A stretch of 64,000 nucleotides of DNA, taken from the NCBI GenBank assembly GCA_004010935.1, contig CP026511.1, forward strand, positions 4,216,001 to 4,280,000. Direction: 5' to 3'. Position numbers and translations under genes: made by a program. The notes below the pieces were generated by a model. It had not been told where the DNA came from and ran no database searches. It was given only the letters and a program-made list of their open reading frames with translations. Positions 7,953 to 20,509 of this stretch are shown here, in pieces (the first letter of the stretch is position 1; each line of letters begins with the position of its first letter). This stretch comes from Pseudomonadaceae bacterium SI-3 (lineage in GTDB: Bacteria > Pseudomonadota > Gammaproteobacteria > Pseudomonadales > Pseudomonadaceae).

Positions 7953-12802
<4,850 letters not shown>

Positions 12803-12811
12803 GCCATCGCG

Positions 12812-12831
12812 CTGCGCAGAATGCTGCGCAG
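12812..12831 (+). terminator. Possible hairpin downstream of selO
   Basis: CTGCGCAG (12812-12819) is repeated at 12824-12831 after AATG. Each copy is itself palindromic, so the pair forms an 8-bp stem. There is no T-run directly after. It may end the selO transcript. Confidence 0.35.
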
Positions 12832-12904
12832 GCTTTGGCTTGGGGCGATCGACCTGTAGTTGTGAAGCGAACAATGACGGGTGCTAGAGACACATGCGCC
12901 AAAT

Positions 12905-12936
12905 GTTGCGCAACTGCGGGCAGGATGTTGCCCAAC
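12905..12936. promoter_or_regulatory. Tandem GTTGCSCAAC dyads upstream of hcp
   Basis: GTTGCGCAAC (12905-12914, perfect palindrome) and GTTGCCCAAC (12927-12936) have centres 22 bases apart, two helical turns, about 90-115 bases before the sigma-54 element. This is the layout expected of an upstream activator site for a bacterial enhancer-binding protein. The identity of that activator is unknown. Confidence 0.55.
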
Positions 12937-13020
12937 TAAATGTGAGCGATGGCGCAGAGCAGACGGTCTCGACCTCAGTGGATACGTCTAACCAATTGAA
13001 ACGTAAGGATTAAATATAAC

Positions 13021-13035
13021 TGGCACGCGCCTTGT
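13021..13035 (+). promoter_or_regulatory. Sigma-54 (RpoN) promoter of hcp
   Basis: TGGCACG-N4-TTGT matches the -24/-12 consensus TGGCACG-N4-TTGC at every conserved base but the last. GG and the GC position are correctly spaced. It lies 48 bases before the hcp ATG. RpoN control of hcp/vgrG sets by enhancer-binding proteins is known in Vibrio and Pseudomonas. Confidence 0.7.
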
Positions 13036-13083
13036 ACTTATTCTGCTGCCATTCTGGCATTCAACAAGGCAAGGAGAGCGTTC

Positions 13084-13602
13084 ATGCCAACACCCGCGTA
13101 TCTGTCCCTCGAAGGCACCAAGCAAGGCCTGATCACCGCAGGCACTTTCACCGAGGACTCGGTCGGCAATATTTTCCAGGAAGGACACGAAGACCAGATT
13201 CTGGTGCAGGCTTTCCAGCACCAGGTGATCATCCCGCGCGACCCTCAGTCCGGCCAACCCACCGGCCAGCGCGTGCACAAACCCCTGATGATCACCAAGG
13301 TGTTCGACAAGTCGTCGCCGCTGATCTTCAACGCTCTGACCTCGGGTGAACGCCTGAACAAGTGCCGCCTGGAGTGGTACCGCACCTCCTCCACCGGTAC
13401 TCAGGAGCACTACTTCACCATCGAACTGGAAGATGCGGTGATCGTCGACGTGCAGTCGCGCATGCCCAACTGCCAAGACCCGAACATGTCCCACTTCACC
13501 CATCTGGAAGACGTGTACTTCACCTACCGCAAGATCGTCTGGACCCACGAAGTCTCCGGTACTTCTGGCTCCGACGACTGGCGTACCCCGATCTCGGCAT
13601 AA
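13084..13602 (+). CDS. hcp: Type VI secretion tube protein Hcp
   Basis: 172-residue Hcp-family protein that forms hexameric rings stacked into the T6SS inner tube and can carry effectors. The N-terminus MPTPAYLSLEGTKQGLITAG, the VHKPLMITKVFDKSSPLIF segment near residues 69-87 and the HLEDVYFTYRKIVWTHE ending near 142-158 are characteristic of the family. The RBS is AAGGAGAG. It is preceded by a sigma-54 promoter and followed by a strong hairpin before vgrG. No sheath, baseplate or ClpV gene is present in the window, so this is an orphan hcp that must work with an apparatus encoded elsewhere. Confidence 0.93.
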   Translation: MPTPAYLSLEGTKQGLITAGTFTEDSVGNIFQEGHEDQILVQAFQHQVIIPRDPQSGQPTGQRVHKPLMITKVFDKSSPLIFNALTSGERLNKCRLEWYRTSSTGTQEHYFTIELEDAVIVDVQSRMPNCQDPNMSHFTHLEDVYFTYRKIVWTHEVSGTSGSDDWRTPISA

Positions 13603-13636
13603 GCCTCGATCAGGCCTCGCGGCTACGGTTAATCCA

Positions 13637-13662
13637 CATCGGCCAGGTTTACCTGGCCGATG
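13637..13662 (+). terminator. 11-bp perfect hairpin between hcp and vgrG
   Basis: CATCGGCCAGG (13637-13647), loop TTTA, CCTGGCCGATG (13652-13662), starting 34 bases after the hcp stop. The following bases CGTTTCC are not a clean T-tract. It is a likely partial terminator or 3' stabiliser that would keep hcp mRNA in excess over vgrG. No separate vgrG promoter is evident to me. Confidence 0.55.
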
Positions 13663-13860
13663 CGTTTCCAGCTGACGCATTCGGCAAACAACGTAGTGCT
13701 TCACACGGATATTTCGCCAAAAGGGCGAGAATAGCTGCCAGATTTCTGCGGAACTGGATGACTCTCCAATCCGCGCTACGGCACGCCAGAAATACAGACG
13801 ATGCCGCCTTGCGAGCCATTACCGGCTCGCCGCCATGGACTGGTTACAAAGGAACAGGGA

Positions 13861-16029
13861 ATGTTCAATCCGGCTAACGACACGCACTTCAGCCTTGCGA
13901 TTGAAGGCGCTCAATATGACTTGCAGGTACTCGAATTCAAGGGTCGAGAGGCCATCTCGCAGCCCTTCGCGTTCGACCTCGAACTGGTCAGCGAGCGCTC
14001 CGATATCGACCTGGAAAGCCTGCTACATCAGCGCGCCTTTCTAGCCTTGTCGCCTGCCGGCAAGGGTATCCATGGCTTGATCTACAGCGCAGCGCAAGGC
14101 AACTCCGGCAAACGCCTGACGCGCTATCGCGTCACCTTGCGTCCACAGCTAGCCTATCTATCTCACCGCACCAACCAGCGTATCTTCCAGCACCTTTCGG
14201 TACCGCAGATCATCGCCAAGGTGCTAGAAGAGCACGGCATTCTCGCCGGCGACGGCCACCGCTTCGATCTTGGCCCGGTGGTCTATCCCAAGCGGGACTA
14301 CTGCGTTCAATACGATGAAACGGATCTTCAGTTCATCCAACGCCTCTGTGAGGAAGAAGGCATTCACTACCACTTCCGGCACAGCGATGCCGGCCACATG
14401 CTGGTCTTCGGTGATGACCAGACGGTATTTCCGACACTTGCCTCGGTTGCCTATCAGCAGGACAGCGGTCTGGTTGCCGATGAGCCGGTCATCAAGCGTT
14501 TTGGCGTGCGCGTCGAGACCCGCACCGGCCGCGTCACCCGCCGCGATTACGATTTCGAGAAGCCCCGTCTGACCATGGAGGCGGCGGTTAGAAGCAACAC
14601 CCAGCCCGACCTCGAGGTTTACGACTATCCCGGCCGCTTCGTCGACCGCGAGCGAGGCAAGCACCTATCCCGGCGCGCGCTGGAACGCCATCGCCACGAC
14701 TTCGAACTGGCTGAGGGAGAAAGCGACCAGCCGCTGCTGGTCAGCGGCCACTTTCTATCACTCAGCGATCATCCGCGCAGCGACTGGAATCAGCTCTGGC
14801 TGCTGACTGAAGTTTTCCACGAAGGCAAGCAACCTCAGGTGTTGGAAGAGTCCGTCACCGATTCTTCAGACATCGCCGCGCTGACGCCCTTTCCCCTAAT
14901 TGGCAGGGAAAGGGAAGTCCGGCTAAGGGATGAGAGGTCCCTTGCCAACAACGACTTCACCCAAGGCTACCGAAACCAGTTCACTGCGACCCCTTGGGCT
15001 GTCCCCTTCCGCCCCGCACTTCGCCACCCCAAACCACGCATCCTCGGCAGCCAGAGCGCGGTCGTAACCGGCCCGGCCAGCGAAGAGATCCACTGCGACG
15101 AATACGGCCGAGTGAAGGTGCAGTTTCTCTGGGACCGCGAAGGCAAAGCCGATGAGCACACGAGCTGCTGGCTGCGTGTCAGCTCAAGCTGGGCCGGCGA
15201 CCGCTATGGCGGAATCGCCATCCCGCGCGAGGGGATGGAAGTACTGGTGACCTTCCTCGAAGGCGACCCCGACCAGCCCCTGATCACCGGCTGCCTGTAC
15301 CACAAGGAAAACGCCGTTCCCTACGAGCTGCCGGCTAACAAGACCCGCAGCGTCTTTAAGACCCTGAGCAGTCCGGGCGGTGGCGGTTACAACGAACTGC
15401 GCATCGAAGACCGCAAGGGCGCCGAGCAAATCTACCTTCACGCCCAGCGCGACTGGGACGAGAACATCGAACACGACCAGAAGGTCCGCGTCGGACACGA
15501 ACGCCACGACACCGTCGAGGCCAACAGCTACAGCGAATTCCGCGCCGAAGAACACCGCACCACGCATACCGACCGCCGCAGCGAAGTCAAAGCAGACGAC
15601 CACCTGACAGTCGGCAATAACCAGCACGTCAAGATCGGCACCGGCCAGTTCGTTGAAGCCGGCAACGAAATCCACCTCTCCAGCGGCCTGAAAGTGGTCC
15701 TCGAAGCCGGCAGCGAGCTGACCTTCAAAGCCGCGAGTAGCTTTATCAAACTCGACGGTAGCGGCATCACGATGGTCGGGCCGATTATCAAGATCAACTC
15801 CGGCGGTGGACCGGGCGGCGGTTCGGGGGCGGCTCCAGTGTTACCGATCATTCCCAAGCCCGCAGATACCGCACCGACCGGCGATAAGACCGGCCAAGCC
15901 AATATCAATCCGCTGTTGCCGCTGGCAAGCCTAGGTCAACAAGGGCCACAACAGCTGATCGTCGATGTATGGGGCGACCCGGCCTTGGGCGGCCAAGTAC
16001 AACTGCTCGACCCGGAGGAGGAAGCATGA
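13861..16029 (+). CDS. vgrG: T6SS spike protein VgrG
   Basis: 722-residue VgrG trimer subunit that forms the tip of the secreted needle and delivers cargo. The N-terminal gp27-like part has YVSERSDIDLESLL-type and VYPKRDYCVQYDETDLQFIQ segments (about residues 140-160). The gp5-like OB fold is marked by CDEYGRVKVQFLWDR near 410-425 and SWAGDRYGGIAIPREGMEV near 443-461. A beta-helix follows, then a Gly/Pro-rich linker (about 640-690) and a short unique tail. The frame is open 60 bases further up, but the ATG at 13861 has AAGGAACAGGG before it and gives the usual MFNPANDTHFSL start. It ends in an ATGA overlap with the effector gene, which suggests that the pair functions together. Confidence 0.93.
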   Translation: MFNPANDTHFSLAIEGAQYDLQVLEFKGREAISQPFAFDLELVSERSDIDLESLLHQRAFLALSPAGKGIHGLIYSAAQGNSGKRLTRYRVTLRPQLAYLSHRTNQRIFQHLSVPQIIAKVLEEHGILAGDGHRFDLGPVVYPKRDYCVQYDETDLQFIQRLCEEEGIHYHFRHSDAGHMLVFGDDQTVFPTLASVAYQQDSGLVADEPVIKRFGVRVETRTGRVTRRDYDFEKPRLTMEAAVRSNTQPDLEVYDYPGRFVDRERGKHLSRRALERHRHDFELAEGESDQPLLVSGHFLSLSDHPRSDWNQLWLLTEVFHEGKQPQVLEESVTDSSDIAALTPFPLIGREREVRLRDERSLANNDFTQGYRNQFTATPWAVPFRPALRHPKPRILGSQSAVVTGPASEEIHCDEYGRVKVQFLWDREGKADEHTSCWLRVSSSWAGDRYGGIAIPREGMEVLVTFLEGDPDQPLITGCLYHKENAVPYELPANKTRSVFKTLSSPGGGGYNELRIEDRKGAEQIYLHAQRDWDENIEHDQKVRVGHERHDTVEANSYSEFRAEEHRTTHTDRRSEVKADDHLTVGNNQHVKIGTGQFVEAGNEIHLSSGLKVVLEAGSELTFKAASSFIKLDGSGITMVGPIIKINSGGGPGGGSGAAPVLPIIPKPADTAPTGDKTGQANINPLLPLASLGQQGPQQLIVDVWGDPALGGQVQLLDPEEEA

Positions 16030-19000
16030 GCGAGCTGAAGGGCCAGCCCATCAAGCAGGGCACCCGCAAGCGCGCGGAATACGACAATGCGCGCCGTGCG
16101 CGGCTCGCGCTGAATATCGGACGCGCCGACGGCGGCGAGCTGCAGATCCCGGTCGAAGTAGATATGCGCAGCAATGAGGAAGAAGAGAATATTCAGCAGA
16201 ATACCTTCCTCGCAGTCATGCCGATGGCGCGCTTGCCGGGCTACGATCGCTACGACGAGGCCCCCAAGGGCGGCTTGCTTAGAGCAGGAAGACTGTACGT
16301 GTTCCGGCAAGGGAAACTTTGGCGCGAGCTGGAAAGCGACGGCCATGGGCAATTCTTCGAAGTGGATATAGTCCATTGGCGAAAGACGGCCAAGGCAGGC
16401 GACAATGCGGATGAGCGCAAGCCCGTCGGCGTCAAGCAGTATCTGATCCTTTTGCCGATGCTGCTGAAAGGTCGTTTCGTTGGGGACGAATTCTCCATGG
16501 CCTACAGTGAGCTGCCCTGGACCTGGGAATATATACAGTGGCTGGAGGCCAGTTCCGGGCGCATCAAGCAACGCTGTCAGAACGTAGCGCCCGCCTGGGC
16601 CGCTGCCGTGGTAGGCCCCGAGCAATGGAAAGCCACCCAAGCGATGCCGGTCATCCCGATCACACGCATCAGTAAAGGCATGTGTGCCCGCGAACTGCAC
16701 CTTGAAACCCTGCTCGAAGATCCCTTGCTACTCAATACCGGCCTTACCGAGTTGCCCGCCGCCTCGCTGGTTAAGCAGCTCGAACAACGGCAAAAAGAGT
16801 TGGCTGGCTTTATGCGCACTGCGCCACCTGATCCTCTGCCAGTATTGCCGGCAAACAAAGACCTGCTCAACGAATACCAGTTGCGCGACTATCCGCAACT
16901 GGTCGGGGTGATGCTCGACGACCCCATCTTCGCCCTGCGCCATGCCGTCGCCCAGTCGCGGCTATGCGCGGAACTGCTGCAAACCCTCAACGCCCTGGTG
17001 CCGCACCAACCCTTCGGCCGTTATGCCGAGTTGCTCTACAAGGAGGCCATGCCAGCTGATGGACCTCTACAAGAATTTAAACGGCATATCGATATTGCAG
17101 CGCTAAAAAAAGCCACCCTGCACAGCGAACGCGAACAAGCCCGCGAACAGCTTTACCATCAGCAGGAGCGCATGCTTGAGTTGGTTAAACGCCTGCCAGC
17201 AGTGTGGAACGATTTCCTCCACAGCCACGACGAACGTCTGCTGGAGCCTTATGCCCAACTGACCGAACTGCTAGAGGTCCTCAACCGCTCGCCCAAGGGG
17301 TGCGATCCGCGCTGTATCGAAGCGCAGGATATGAAAGTCAGTGCGGCCGTGGACAAACTCAGTCGCCAACTGGTCGAGGCCACCCATGCGCTGACAAGAG
17401 GCTTGTTGGCCAATGCCCAAAACGAGTTGCCAGAAGCCGCCAAACGTCTACAGGCCCTTGCGGCCAGCGGTATCGCCGTCAAGCCGGAGCGCTTGGGCCT
17501 GAGTGCGCTGAGCTTTCTCAACAATGCCTATATCGGCCAGAACCTGATGATGGCAATGGATGAACTGCTCAACCATGTCGCCTTGGCCAGTGCGCTGGCG
17601 GTCAAGCGCATCAGCGAAAACACCAGCGTTACCCAAGTTCAGCTGCACCGCAGCTTCGCCCCAACCTTCGATGTGCTGAAAAAGCTGCATAGCCAAGCGA
17701 AAGGGCTGAAACTGCTGACCCAAGGCGAAGCTCTGGCCAAAAATATGGTGGTGCTGGGCGTGCATGGCGACGGCTTCAACTTTGGCATCACCGACGCCGA
17801 GCGCATCACCCTGACCCGCGACAACTACCTGTATGCCAGCCTGGAAAAGAACAATGGCCAGGTACTCGCCACCAGCAGCGGCAAGCTGGCCGAGCGCCTG
17901 AACTTTGCCCGTAAAGACCTGGGCCAGGTCATGGTGGTGGCTGCCGAAGCCAACGATCCCCTGGTCGCCGACTATAAGCAGTGGCGCACCGGCGCCGCCC
18001 ACCTGAACACCGCCAAGGCCCTCGCCAATAGCAAGACGTTGCCCGTACTGGCGACTGTGTGTGCGGGGTTTAGTTTGTATGCGAATCTATGGGGAGCAAA
18101 AGACTTAATCAGCCAAGGCGAGGTAGAACGATGGACCATTGGCGCAATGGGCGCTACAGCAGATCTTGGGTTAGCCAGTAATAACGTTGCGCTCAAATTG
18201 CTAACCGATGCCAAGCGTAGCGGCAACCCATGGCATGTGTTCTGGGAGCGAGGCCGCTTTCAAACCTCAGGCTTCTGGGCCGAAAACCTGCTAAAGCGTA
18301 CTGGCAGCACATGGCTAAATGTGTCGCGTGTCGGCTCGGCTGTGGCCATGGGAGTAACGGCTTTCTTGTTTGCGTGGGACGCCGGACGCGCCCTGCGTGA
18401 CGGCGACGACGATGTCGCCATGGCTAATATGATCGCCGCCAGCGGCTCGGGTATCTGGGCGCTCTATACCGTTGGTCTGCTAGCCAGCCCCTGGTTGCTG
18501 GGGCTGGGGATCGGTCTGCTGGTGGCCGGTGTGATTGGCACCGTATTACTAGCCGATGGCGCGGTGGAACAGGCCATCAAGCACGGCCCCTTCGGCACCA
18601 AGCAGCGCCTGCCGCAGATGAACAACCCCTTGCAGGCTTACCAGCAACTGCTGGGGGCTCTGGGCGAGCCCCGCGTCCATATTGAGCGGCTACAGTTCTG
18701 GCAGGACAAGGCCAGTGCGGCGGACAACGCTCGCCTGCTCGATGCGCAAACAAGCGCGCGTGGTTACCTGGCACGGCAAGACTGGGTGGTCGAACTGAGC
18801 ACCCCGCTGCTGGGCCAGTTCCGCAATGGCCTCGACTTCCGCCTAATCGCCAAGGAAGTGCTGCGCACCCGTGGTCATACCTCGGGTTGGACCTACCGTT
18901 ACCAGCCTATCCCCAAGGAAAAGCTTGGCGCTGTGGTGCTCGACGGTAATCGCTTGCTCTTTGTGCTGCCTGCACAATTTGTTGTGGCCTCGGCAGATGA

Positions 19001-19235
19001 CCCGCTGCGCTACAGGCAAGCCATCGAATACAGCCTTAAGGTCTGTGGGCAGTTCGAACTGGGCGAAACTATGTGCCACGCGGACGATCCCTTCCCAGGC
19101 TATAACCGCATCACGCTCCCCCAGCCAAAGCCGCGTAGCTGGCAAGCGTTTGCAGCGCAGATGCCCACAGACGGCGACAATGCCGATGACGTGGCCTACT
19201 GGCTGATTACACAACGGGACTTTGCCAAAATATGA
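16026..19235 (+). CDS. Large VasX-like membrane-acting T6SS effector (predicted)
   Basis: 1069-residue protein encoded directly after vgrG, with its ATG inside the vgrG stop (ATGA) and a strong GGAGGAGGA RBS. Residues of about 45-120 (QIPVEVDMRS, FLAVMPMARLPGYDRY, GGLLRAGRLYVFRQGKLWRE) resemble the N-terminal region of VasX-type toxins: a short domain with an L-R-x-G-x-L-Y-V-F motif. The middle is helical and coil-rich. Hydrophobic helices occur near 670-690, 767-785 and 805-845 (ASPWLLGLGIGLLVAGVIGTVLL), separated by charged loops, which fits a colicin- or VasX-like pore-forming toxin. No catalytic motif is seen. No DUF4123 chaperone gene lies between it and vgrG. Family assignment is by visible resemblance and needs a profile search; the role as a toxin is inferred from position. 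Confidence 0.7.
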   Translation: MSELKGQPIKQGTRKRAEYDNARRARLALNIGRADGGELQIPVEVDMRSNEEEENIQQNTFLAVMPMARLPGYDRYDEAPKGGLLRAGRLYVFRQGKLWRELESDGHGQFFEVDIVHWRKTAKAGDNADERKPVGVKQYLILLPMLLKGRFVGDEFSMAYSELPWTWEYIQWLEASSGRIKQRCQNVAPAWAAAVVGPEQWKATQAMPVIPITRISKGMCARELHLETLLEDPLLLNTGLTELPAASLVKQLEQRQKELAGFMRTAPPDPLPVLPANKDLLNEYQLRDYPQLVGVMLDDPIFALRHAVAQSRLCAELLQTLNALVPHQPFGRYAELLYKEAMPADGPLQEFKRHIDIAALKKATLHSEREQAREQLYHQQERMLELVKRLPAVWNDFLHSHDERLLEPYAQLTELLEVLNRSPKGCDPRCIEAQDMKVSAAVDKLSRQLVEATHALTRGLLANAQNELPEAAKRLQALAASGIAVKPERLGLSALSFLNNAYIGQNLMMAMDELLNHVALASALAVKRISENTSVTQVQLHRSFAPTFDVLKKLHSQAKGLKLLTQGEALAKNMVVLGVHGDGFNFGITDAERITLTRDNYLYASLEKNNGQVLATSSGKLAERLNFARKDLGQVMVVAAEANDPLVADYKQWRTGAAHLNTAKALANSKTLPVLATVCAGFSLYANLWGAKDLISQGEVERWTIGAMGATADLGLASNNVALKLLTDAKRSGNPWHVFWERGRFQTSGFWAENLLKRTGSTWLNVSRVGSAVAMGVTAFLFAWDAGRALRDGDDDVAMANMIAASGSGIWALYTVGLLASPWLLGLGIGLLVAGVIGTVLLADGAVEQAIKHGPFGTKQRLPQMNNPLQAYQQLLGALGEPRVHIERLQFWQDKASAADNARLLDAQTSARGYLARQDWVVELSTPLLGQFRNGLDFRLIAKEVLRTRGHTSGWTYRYQPIPKEKLGAVVLDGNRLLFVLPAQFVVASADDPLRYRQAIEYSLKVCGQFELGETMCHADDPFPGYNRITLPQPKPRSWQAFAAQMPTDGDNADDVAYWLITQRDFAKI

Positions 19236-20509
19236 ATGCCTCCGTTAAACCGACAGCAACTTATGCCGATTCGGCCTACTGCAGCAACGCCATTCCGGTT
19301 CAACCACCGCATAAGTGGCCGCAGGATGCCGACCGTACTGGCCCGACTCGGACGCAATTGCGCTGGGGGCACTATGCCAACCTAGTGCCTTCGCAGGATG
19401 TAGATGCACAGTTGCAGCCCGGTATGCGTGACTATCTAGACAAAAAAAAAGAAAATGACCTTTATATTAATCAAAAGCGCTGGAACTTCGATAACACCAG
19501 CAAGTGGATGATTCTGATTCCCTATTTAAAATATGCGTCAATGCTTTTTATACCGTGGATGCTGTGGGGGGTTATGACTACAGAAGCTCTCGCTGTAACT
19601 ATAGCGTGGGCGGCAGAAATAAATAGCGCCAACTCATATGTCGTCATTGGCTTTCTCTCCATTATAGTATCTTTTTTATTTATGGGTCTTAGTGCTTGGT
19701 ATGTGTGGGGCGGCGATAATCCGCGCTATAAACAATATCTAATCCATGTTGCATCTGGCTTTTTAGTGGCGCTAATAGCCTCTCTAGCAACCTTTGAGGA
19801 CTCCTCGTCCGGTACAGATATGTTCTGGCTTTGCGCTGGCATGGCCCTTAGTGTCTTTATGGGCCTAATCGGCTGGGATTACTTACAAGACCTTTACCTG
19901 CGCGTATTCGCTCACGATGACAGCGGCTTTAACCGCCAGACCGGCATGCTCACTATTGGCAGGCGCTTTCAAAAACCCTTTAGCGCACCGCTCTATGAGT
20001 TCGATGCCACCCTGGAATTCCGCCCCGGCCCGCACGGCAACAGCGGCTTCGCAATTTGGATGCACCACCGCTACACCTCGGTCGAGGTGTTTCTCGGCGC
20101 TAAAATCCAATCCCTGGGCATGAACCTGGAAGAAGCTCTGGCGTTCTGGGATACGCTGCAGCGCTATATGGACGTGACCCAACCCTTACCCGAACTGCCG
20201 ATTCTCGAACAGTTCCGCCACCTCGACCCGACTACCGCCGAACACGACCGCCAGAGCAAGCGCGACCCGCGCCGTTGGCGTGATATGCCTTACCGGGCCT
20301 GGGAGCGCCGTGGCCGTGCGGAAATGATAAAGCGCAACCGCGACTACAAATGGCAGGAACAACCCTGCATCATCCAATCCAAGATCGACCCCGGCCTGAG
20401 CATCGAAGCCTACTACCGCAGCCAGGAAGCCAAGGGCATCCAGGCCACGCCCAAGAGCGACGACTTCGATGACGTCCATCAGCATCACATCGGCACCGAA
20501 CGCAGCTGA
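19232..20509 (+). CDS. Four-helix membrane protein, DUF6708-like; candidate immunity or accessory protein
   Basis: 425-residue protein starting in an ATGA overlap with the effector. There are four hydrophobic helices at about 92-118, 135-160, 170-190 and 198-222, and no signal peptide. The C-terminal soluble half has FNRQTGMLTIGRRFQKPF, LYEFDATLEFRP and EALAFWDTLQRYMD, which resemble the DUF6708 family often seen beside T6SS genes; this is recognition from memory. The segment around 19440-19910 is clearly poorer in GC than its neighbours, with runs such as caaaaaaaaagaaaa, as is common for rapidly exchanged immunity genes. Position after a membrane-active effector suggests that it protects the producer, but a second effector or chaperone role is possible. 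Confidence 0.6.
   Translation: MNASVKPTATYADSAYCSNAIPVQPPHKWPQDADRTGPTRTQLRWGHYANLVPSQDVDAQLQPGMRDYLDKKKENDLYINQKRWNFDNTSKWMILIPYLKYASMLFIPWMLWGVMTTEALAVTIAWAAEINSANSYVVIGFLSIIVSFLFMGLSAWYVWGGDNPRYKQYLIHVASGFLVALIASLATFEDSSSGTDMFWLCAGMALSVFMGLIGWDYLQDLYLRVFAHDDSGFNRQTGMLTIGRRFQKPFSAPLYEFDATLEFRPGPHGNSGFAIWMHHRYTSVEVFLGAKIQSLGMNLEEALAFWDTLQRYMDVTQPLPELPILEQFRHLDPTTAEHDRQSKRDPRRWRDMPYRAWERRGRAEMIKRNRDYKWQEQPCIIQSKIDPGLSIEAYYRSQEAKGIQATPKSDDFDDVHQHHIGTERS

Follow-up and report, generated by a model that had tools for sequence, protein, structure and literature searches.

The locus considered here raises the question of how an hcp gene is controlled when it lies far from the main T6SS cluster of its genome. 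The gene was found in a stretch of 64,000 nucleotides (the window) from Pseudomonadaceae bacterium SI-3, whose genome is one contig of 4.84 Mb; among named genomes, the closest hcp is that of Stutzerimonas xanthomarina. In the window, hcp lies downstream of selO and heads a series of genes read from the plus strand:

13084-13602, plus strand: hcp/tssD (Pfam T6SS_HCP, 1e-36; TIGR03344, 8.5e-69)
13801-16029, plus strand: vgrG/tssI, spike protein (family searches)
15969-19235, plus strand: 1088-aa protein, possible T6SS cargo (VasX_N match below threshold, E 0.011, 16.3 bits versus a cut-off of 27)
19232-20509, plus strand: 425-aa protein adjoining the possible cargo (no accepted family)

The last two genes may form a T6SS cargo pair. 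The main T6SS cluster occupies ∼310-338 kb on the minus strand, where TssC was confirmed by search and tssA (336875-338449) and a ClpV-like neighbour were named by eye; by eye, too, this core cluster begins beside the apparent 16S end of an rRNA operon at ∼338.5-339.6 kb. By both protein search and Pfam family search, no hcp was found in the main cluster, and the gene in the window was the sole Hcp gene found in the genome. The island had been called an orphan in the original prediction, which understates the case; since no other Hcp gene was found, the "orphan" promoter should govern the supply of tube protein to the entire T6SS.

We consider it probable that this sole hcp gene has a sigma-54 promoter with three 18-bp activator operators, an IHF-like site, and, as its likely activator, an Sfa/VasH-like protein, an explanation in which we infer RpoN dependence, binding by the Sfa-like protein, and IHF binding. 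At the RpoN promoter of hcp, the activator would bind three TGCGCAA-N4-TTGCGCA repeats, DNA bending at the IHF-like site would bring activator hexamers to RNA polymerase, and expression of the main cluster would supply the activator and so switch on tube, spike, and cargo. The elements upstream of hcp are as follows:

12813-12830, no strand assigned: operator O1, TGCGCAG-AATG-CTGCGCA, 2 mismatches, fully symmetric (comparison of hcp loci)
12895-12912, no strand assigned: operator O2, TGCGCCA-AATG-TTGCGCA, 1 mismatch (comparison of hcp loci)
12917-12934, no strand assigned: operator O3, CGGGCAG-GATG-TTGCCCA, 4 mismatches (comparison of hcp loci)
12989-13001, minus strand: IHF-like site TAACCAATTGAAA, 1 mismatch to YAANNNNTTGATW, between operators and promoter
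13021-13035, plus strand: sigma-54 -24/-12 element TGGCACGCGCCTTGT (sequence)
13071-13076, plus strand: ribosome binding site AAGGAG (sequence)

The original prediction had placed a near-consensus -24/-12 element before hcp and, upstream of it, two 10-bp dyads, GTTGCGCAAC (12905-12914) and GTTGCCCAAC (12927-12936), 22 bp apart. All letters and distances were correct, including the 48 bases between the -24/-12 element and the hcp ATG at 13084; the -12 of the window ends in GT, not GC. By number alone, neither single 10-bp words nor a single -24/-12 consensus is unusual: at up to 2 mismatches the consensus occurred 23 times in the window, versus a shuffle mean of 34, and was thus not commoner than expected by chance (two sites, at 13021 and 43815, had 1 mismatch), and GTTGCSCAAC occurred 30 times forward and 28 times in reverse across the 4.84 Mb, versus 30 and 23 for a backward control. 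Conservation was taken as decisive for the reality of the promoter, and it was assessed in loci that are all related by descent. The window and 80 hcp loci from named genomes, 81 in total, were compared with their upstream DNA anchored on the -24 element; 15 loci with at least 80% ungapped identity were dropped, and 66 non-redundant Pseudomonadaceae loci were kept. A -24/-12 element with no more than 2 mismatches lay 40-110 bp upstream of hcp in 65 of the 66 loci, versus 0.16 in base shuffles, so that the -24 GG and the -12 G(C) are conserved at hcp with fixed spacing. Shuffles for the -24/-12, IHF-like, and DnaA-box-like words preserved base content only, and those for the operators preserved dinucleotides.

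Comparison of the same loci revised the extent and number of the dyads. The conserved unit is an 18-bp inverted repeat of 7-4-7 form, TGCGCAA-N4-TTGCGCA, present in three copies before hcp. The two dyads stand where they were predicted, 22 bp apart, but they are right halves of this repeat (O2 and O3 each include eight of the ten bases of the dyads at 12905-12914 and 12927-12936, respectively), and there are three operators rather than two, the copy at 12813-12830 having been overlooked. As complete dyads the 10-bp words were ruled out because columns 18-19, which hold the "AC" that they need, are poorly conserved (0.43 and 0.30 bits); the seven left-half columns carry 0.95-1.84 bits, and the right-half columns 1.13-1.81 bits in six of seven, with column 15 at 0.37. 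No column outside the repeat reaches 0.9 bits except column 25, the first G, present in 94% of loci, of a GTGA conserved ∼7 bases past O3 (12942-12945 in the window). Two of the four mismatches in the window's O3 are a symmetric C/G exchange.

At up to 3 mismatches, the repeat was matched 186 times in the 66 loci, overlaps counted, versus a mean of 3.15 in dinucleotide shuffles, and the matches clustered at approximately -200, -117, and -95 from the -24 GG. The best site in the expected interval had no more than 3 mismatches in 58 of the 66 loci for O1, 58 for O2, and 51 for O3. The centres of O2 and O3 were 22 bp apart in 50 of the 66 loci, 21 bp in 14, and 20 bp in two, whereas O1 and O2 were separated by 82-84 bp in 54 of 66, most commonly by 83 bp in the relatives and by 82 bp in the window. 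The dyads are thus repeated within 80-250 bp upstream of the promoter and helically phased, as in an enhancer (UAS), and because O2 and O3 are about two turns apart and O1 is another 82 bp (some eight turns) upstream, all three operators could face one side of the DNA. The prediction of a sigma-54-type promoter before hcp, with activator-type sites in enhancer geometry, is therefore supported by conservation in orthologous regions, where the dyads are present. Just past O1, ∼184 bp before the -24 element, a word resembling a DnaA box (minus-strand TTATNCACA, appearing as TGTGGATAA) was found in 29 of the 66 loci, versus 0.06 in base shuffles (e.g., loci L073, L109, and L127), and a second similar word follows in some; in the window the word was not found. 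Between the operators and the promoter, the IHF-like site was present with up to 1 mismatch in 54 of the 66 loci (base shuffles gave 6), most often 32-33 bases upstream of the -24 element.

The suggestion that the activator might be encoded with the main T6SS gained a candidate, since an enhancer-binding protein of Sfa/VasH layout (518 aa, 327209-328765) was found in the main cluster. Its accepted domains are sigma-54 interaction, AAA-lid, and Fis-type HTH, and it carries GAFTGA; its own GAF matches, for the sensor domain, fell below the cut-off, and a GAF-type domain is listed for many of its relatives. The name Sfa is given here solely from this domain layout and from the place in the cluster; among the NCBIfam matches listed, only generic activator names were obtained, all below cut-off. 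The recognition helix ELGLPRRTLLYR was invariant in 12 of 12 relatives, hand-picked from 120 listed, which fits one operator across the family. Among 56 same-genus genomes, hcp was found in 51 (the copies of G050 being only 56-57% identical), an sfa match (E ≤ 1e-150) in 42, and TssC in 43, and the sfa and TssC sets differ by a single genome, G009. Of the 42 sfa matches, eight contain one in-frame stop (G027, G008, G047, G035, G030, G034, G011, and G013). We regard the Sfa/VasH-like protein of the main cluster as the likely activator, one that would bind O1-O3.

Searches beyond the comparison set were used to see where else the operator occurs. In the window's own genome, 6 sites matched the 18-bp repeat with up to 1 mismatch, the other five all inside long open reading frames, and 83 sites matched with up to 2, versus 19 for a backward control; seven of these were viewed in context. 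Backward patterns are a poor control here, TGCGCA being frequent in these genomes in its own right, so reliance was placed on shuffles, position, and the downstream gene. The tandem O2-O3 pattern alone (24 fixed bases, up to 3 mismatches) was then sought in 298 Pseudomonadaceae genomes, some of which may belong to species already represented in the comparison set, and was found in 85 of them, from 8 of 19 genera, versus 0 for the backward control among the matches listed; the window's genome was missed by this strict pattern because its O3 is degenerate. Thirty loci were inspected, one from each of 30 of the 85 genomes. An hcp start lay 147-174 bp downstream of the tandem pair in 23 of the 30, and in 10 of these 23 Hcp was only 72-76% identical to that of the window, so that these 10 lie outside the first comparison set. 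Four further loci were cut by a contig end, three of them with a -24/-12 element at 84-86 bp; one (L316, G544:C5) had a perfect tandem pair and a -24-like TGGCATAGCCCTTGA before a non-hcp gene, possibly another T6SS gene; and two had 3-mismatch sites near a tatD-like gene that look like chance. As a marker, the tandem pair comes close to being diagnostic for hcp among the loci read.

More distant hcp genes were matched in 23 of 274 class-wide genomes. Seven of these 23 genomes matched at 46% identity or higher, two of the seven being in the window's genus. Seven promoters, from five of the genomes, were read, with no shuffle control. One (L275) had a perfect operator and a 3-mismatch one, another (L293) had one operator with 3 mismatches, and a third (L274) had two related 7-4-7 repeats (4 mismatches) upstream of -24/-12; in the other four (L272, L276, L277, and L294), nothing nearer than 4 mismatches to the operator was found.

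The original prediction had also proposed a search of the genome for further GTTGCSCAAC pairs before T6SS genes. The window pair was the sole such pair within 100 bp in the genome list, but the 18-bp operator does recur at the core T6SS promoter of relatives. The tssA region was taken from 38 of the 42 sfa-bearing genomes, with tssA placed by a short protein motif, and 36 were scored, the window's included. Operators with up to 2 mismatches preceded tssA as two or three copies in 23 of the 36 genomes and as one copy in two; eleven had none, among them the window's genome, where, as in several relatives, only a remnant half-site is seen. In the 23 genomes, a TAGGAT, preceded at ∼17 bp by a TTG hexamer (TTGAAN in most), begins 22-25 bases before the first operator, and the two hexamers together make up a sigma-70-like core promoter. 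No -24/-12 element with up to 1 mismatch was found within 700 bp of tssA on either strand in 17 loci, 8 of the 23 included, and the four 2-mismatch sites in these 17 loci had no consistent place. Operators just downstream of a sigma-70-like core promoter imply that a bound regulator would hinder that promoter, and this arrangement in 23 of 36 genomes suggests autorepression.

Reports on this point differ. In P. aeruginosa, expression of the H2-T6SS core was 3.7-fold higher without Sfa2, an effect that was RpoN-dependent and called indirect, according to PMC3804575, whereas Sfa2 is described as an activator of H2-T6SS genes in PMC8855297. In P. syringae, Sfa2 is reported to activate all three operons of the T6SS cluster (PMC7283901), which argues against autorepression there. 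Tentatively, and with rather more doubt than confidence, we propose that one enhancer-binding protein reads one operator in two roles, as a sigma-54 enhancer at hcp and as a repressor of the sigma-70 core promoter that limits the machine and its own synthesis. The two or three core operators, ∼16-19 bases downstream of the -10, would then block synthesis of both machine and activator. Such dual action would explain why Sfa2 has been reported as both activator and repressor of H2-T6SS genes, and, if true, would make hcp the sole remaining switch where the core operator is absent or survives as no more than a half-site, as in the window's genome and several relatives.

An alternative that we judge improbable, though the strongest of those considered, accepts sigma-54 dependence and assigns the operators to another enhancer-binding protein of the genome or to a global regulator, not to the T6SS-encoded Sfa. 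The genome offers candidates, with 16 strong Sigma54_activat matches (E 2.6e-60 or better), and the operators are not confined to genomes that carry the activator: nine of the 50 same-genus genomes with orthologous hcp have neither TssC nor sfa (G017, G018, G022, G025, G031, G049, G053, G054, and G055; G022 is only 71% complete), and all nine keep -24/-12, O1, and O2. In eight of these nine (G022 left out) and in five further sfa-less genomes, sfa gave no match even at E ≤ 1e-95. Mean mismatches for O1, O2, and O3 were 1.33, 1.78, and 3.44 in the nine, versus 1.10, 2.59, and 2.17 in the 41 sfa-bearing genomes, and the O3 medians were 4 versus 1. A weak O3 (at least 3 mismatches) was seen in six of the nine, and since 12 of the 41 sfa-bearing genomes, that of the window included, share this weak O3, it is not readable as decay. 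Operator decay in genomes lacking sfa, considered as proof of Sfa binding, was accordingly rejected: -24/-12, O1, and O2 show none, and the weak O3 is shared. The hcp genes of the sfa-less genomes differ from the nearest of seven sfa-bearing ones by 0-36 synonymous and 0-2 non-synonymous codons, and retention of the operators may reflect recent loss of the machine or another binder or activator. In all nine the hcp frame is open, and a vgrG match lies downstream in the six checked (G017, G025, G031, G049, G053, and G055), each read as a named locus whose upstream DNA is the same; these genomes look like carriers of hcp-vgrG islands without a machine.

Against this alternative, hardly any tandem pair in the loci read lies elsewhere than at an hcp promoter, and the core T6SS promoter of relatives has copies of the operator as well, both of which point to a T6SS-specific regulator. 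Dependence of hcp on Sfa2 or VasH is, moreover, published for other species. According to PMC8855297, RpoN occupies the hcp2-vgrG promoters of P. aeruginosa and Sfa2 is needed for the orphan clusters; without Sfa2, P. syringae has little or no Hcp2 (PMC7283901), and VasH is needed for hcp in V. fischeri (PMC9972734). A result that counts against Sfa as the activator at hcp is that, in the Sfa2 ChIP-seq of PMC8855297, where background was high, no cluster other than the core one gave a clear peak.

It is considerably less probable still that the repeats are sites of CueR, a MerR-family copper regulator and repressor of the H2-T6SS hcp2 of P. aeruginosa. CueR is reported to have shifted an hcp2 fragment (-208 to -159) in vitro, and loss of cueR to have raised Hcp2 (PMC6907878); this fragment includes two operators (0 and 3 mismatches) 21 bp apart, so that CueR may also contact these operators, unless the assay detected something different. 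The authors themselves state that the sequence of the fragment differs from known CueR sites, and the tssA2 fragment of the same study contains no such operator (best match, 9 mismatches). A set of three sites, 96-200 bp upstream of the -24/-12 element, is what would be expected of an enhancer-binding protein; regulators of the MerR type generally work from a position between -35 and -10. No sigma-70-like promoter was found in the window at 12780-13900. The reading of the signals as chance or as something else, with O1 as the selO terminator and O2 and O3 as accidental palindromes, is highly implausible: a hairpin scanner flags 12812-12831, overlapping O1, and TGCGCA words are common in the genome, but O1 is kept (up to 3 mismatches) in 44 of 51 loci with no upstream selO match, which rules it out as simply a terminator, the spacing is fixed across the 66 loci, and the other close sites of the genome all lie inside long open reading frames.

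The sigma-54 promoter with operators for an Sfa/VasH-like activator thus remains the preferred explanation, and an 18-bp operator defined this precisely, with conservation across those Pseudomonadaceae hcp promoters that were examined, makes the question of VasH/Sfa recognition testable. With it, DNA sequence could be enough to locate hcp islands; it also provides an alternative view of the CueR-bound hcp2 fragment (PMC6907878) and suggests a route to reconciling the accounts of Sfa2 as a repressor (PMC3804575) and as an activator (PMC8855297). The binding sequence of VasH was described as "not yet determined" in 2018 (PMC5963220). Among the open-access papers listed by the searches, none was recognised as defining an Sfa or VasH operator, and in the accessible text of a P. 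aeruginosa ChIP-seq paper of 2026 (PMC13086498) Sfa2 appears only in the reference list. We regard the 18-bp operator as newly resolved, although part of the motif may be contained in supplementary figure S9 of PMC8855297.

The closest known counterparts are the H2-T6SS hcp2-vgrG islands of P. aeruginosa, which likewise have a sigma-54 promoter, an hcp-vgrG pair away from the main cluster, and an activator encoded in the main cluster, as the candidate is here, with "conserved or inverted repeats" noted upstream (PMC8855297). They differ in that P. aeruginosa has several hcp copies, whereas a single hcp was found here, and the operator sequence, its three-site layout, and the copies at the core promoter of relatives are absent from the accessible text of that article, figure S9 aside. 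By published description, the hcp-vgrG loci of V. fluvialis, V. cholerae, and V. fischeri share the VasH-type activator and the -24/-12 element (PMC5963220, PMC9972734), and the hcp promoters of V. fluvialis and V. cholerae have an IHF site, TAACTTATTGATT, just upstream of the -24 (PMC5963220), where the IHF-like site of the promoter here also lies. That RpoN and a T6SS-encoded activator act at hcp islands is already known. In NtrC-type tandem enhancers, roughly two helical turns separate the dyads, which lie ∼100 bp upstream of -24/-12; the pair before hcp has the same tandem geometry with a different half-site and spacing, and is distinguished by a third conserved operator about eight turns further upstream.
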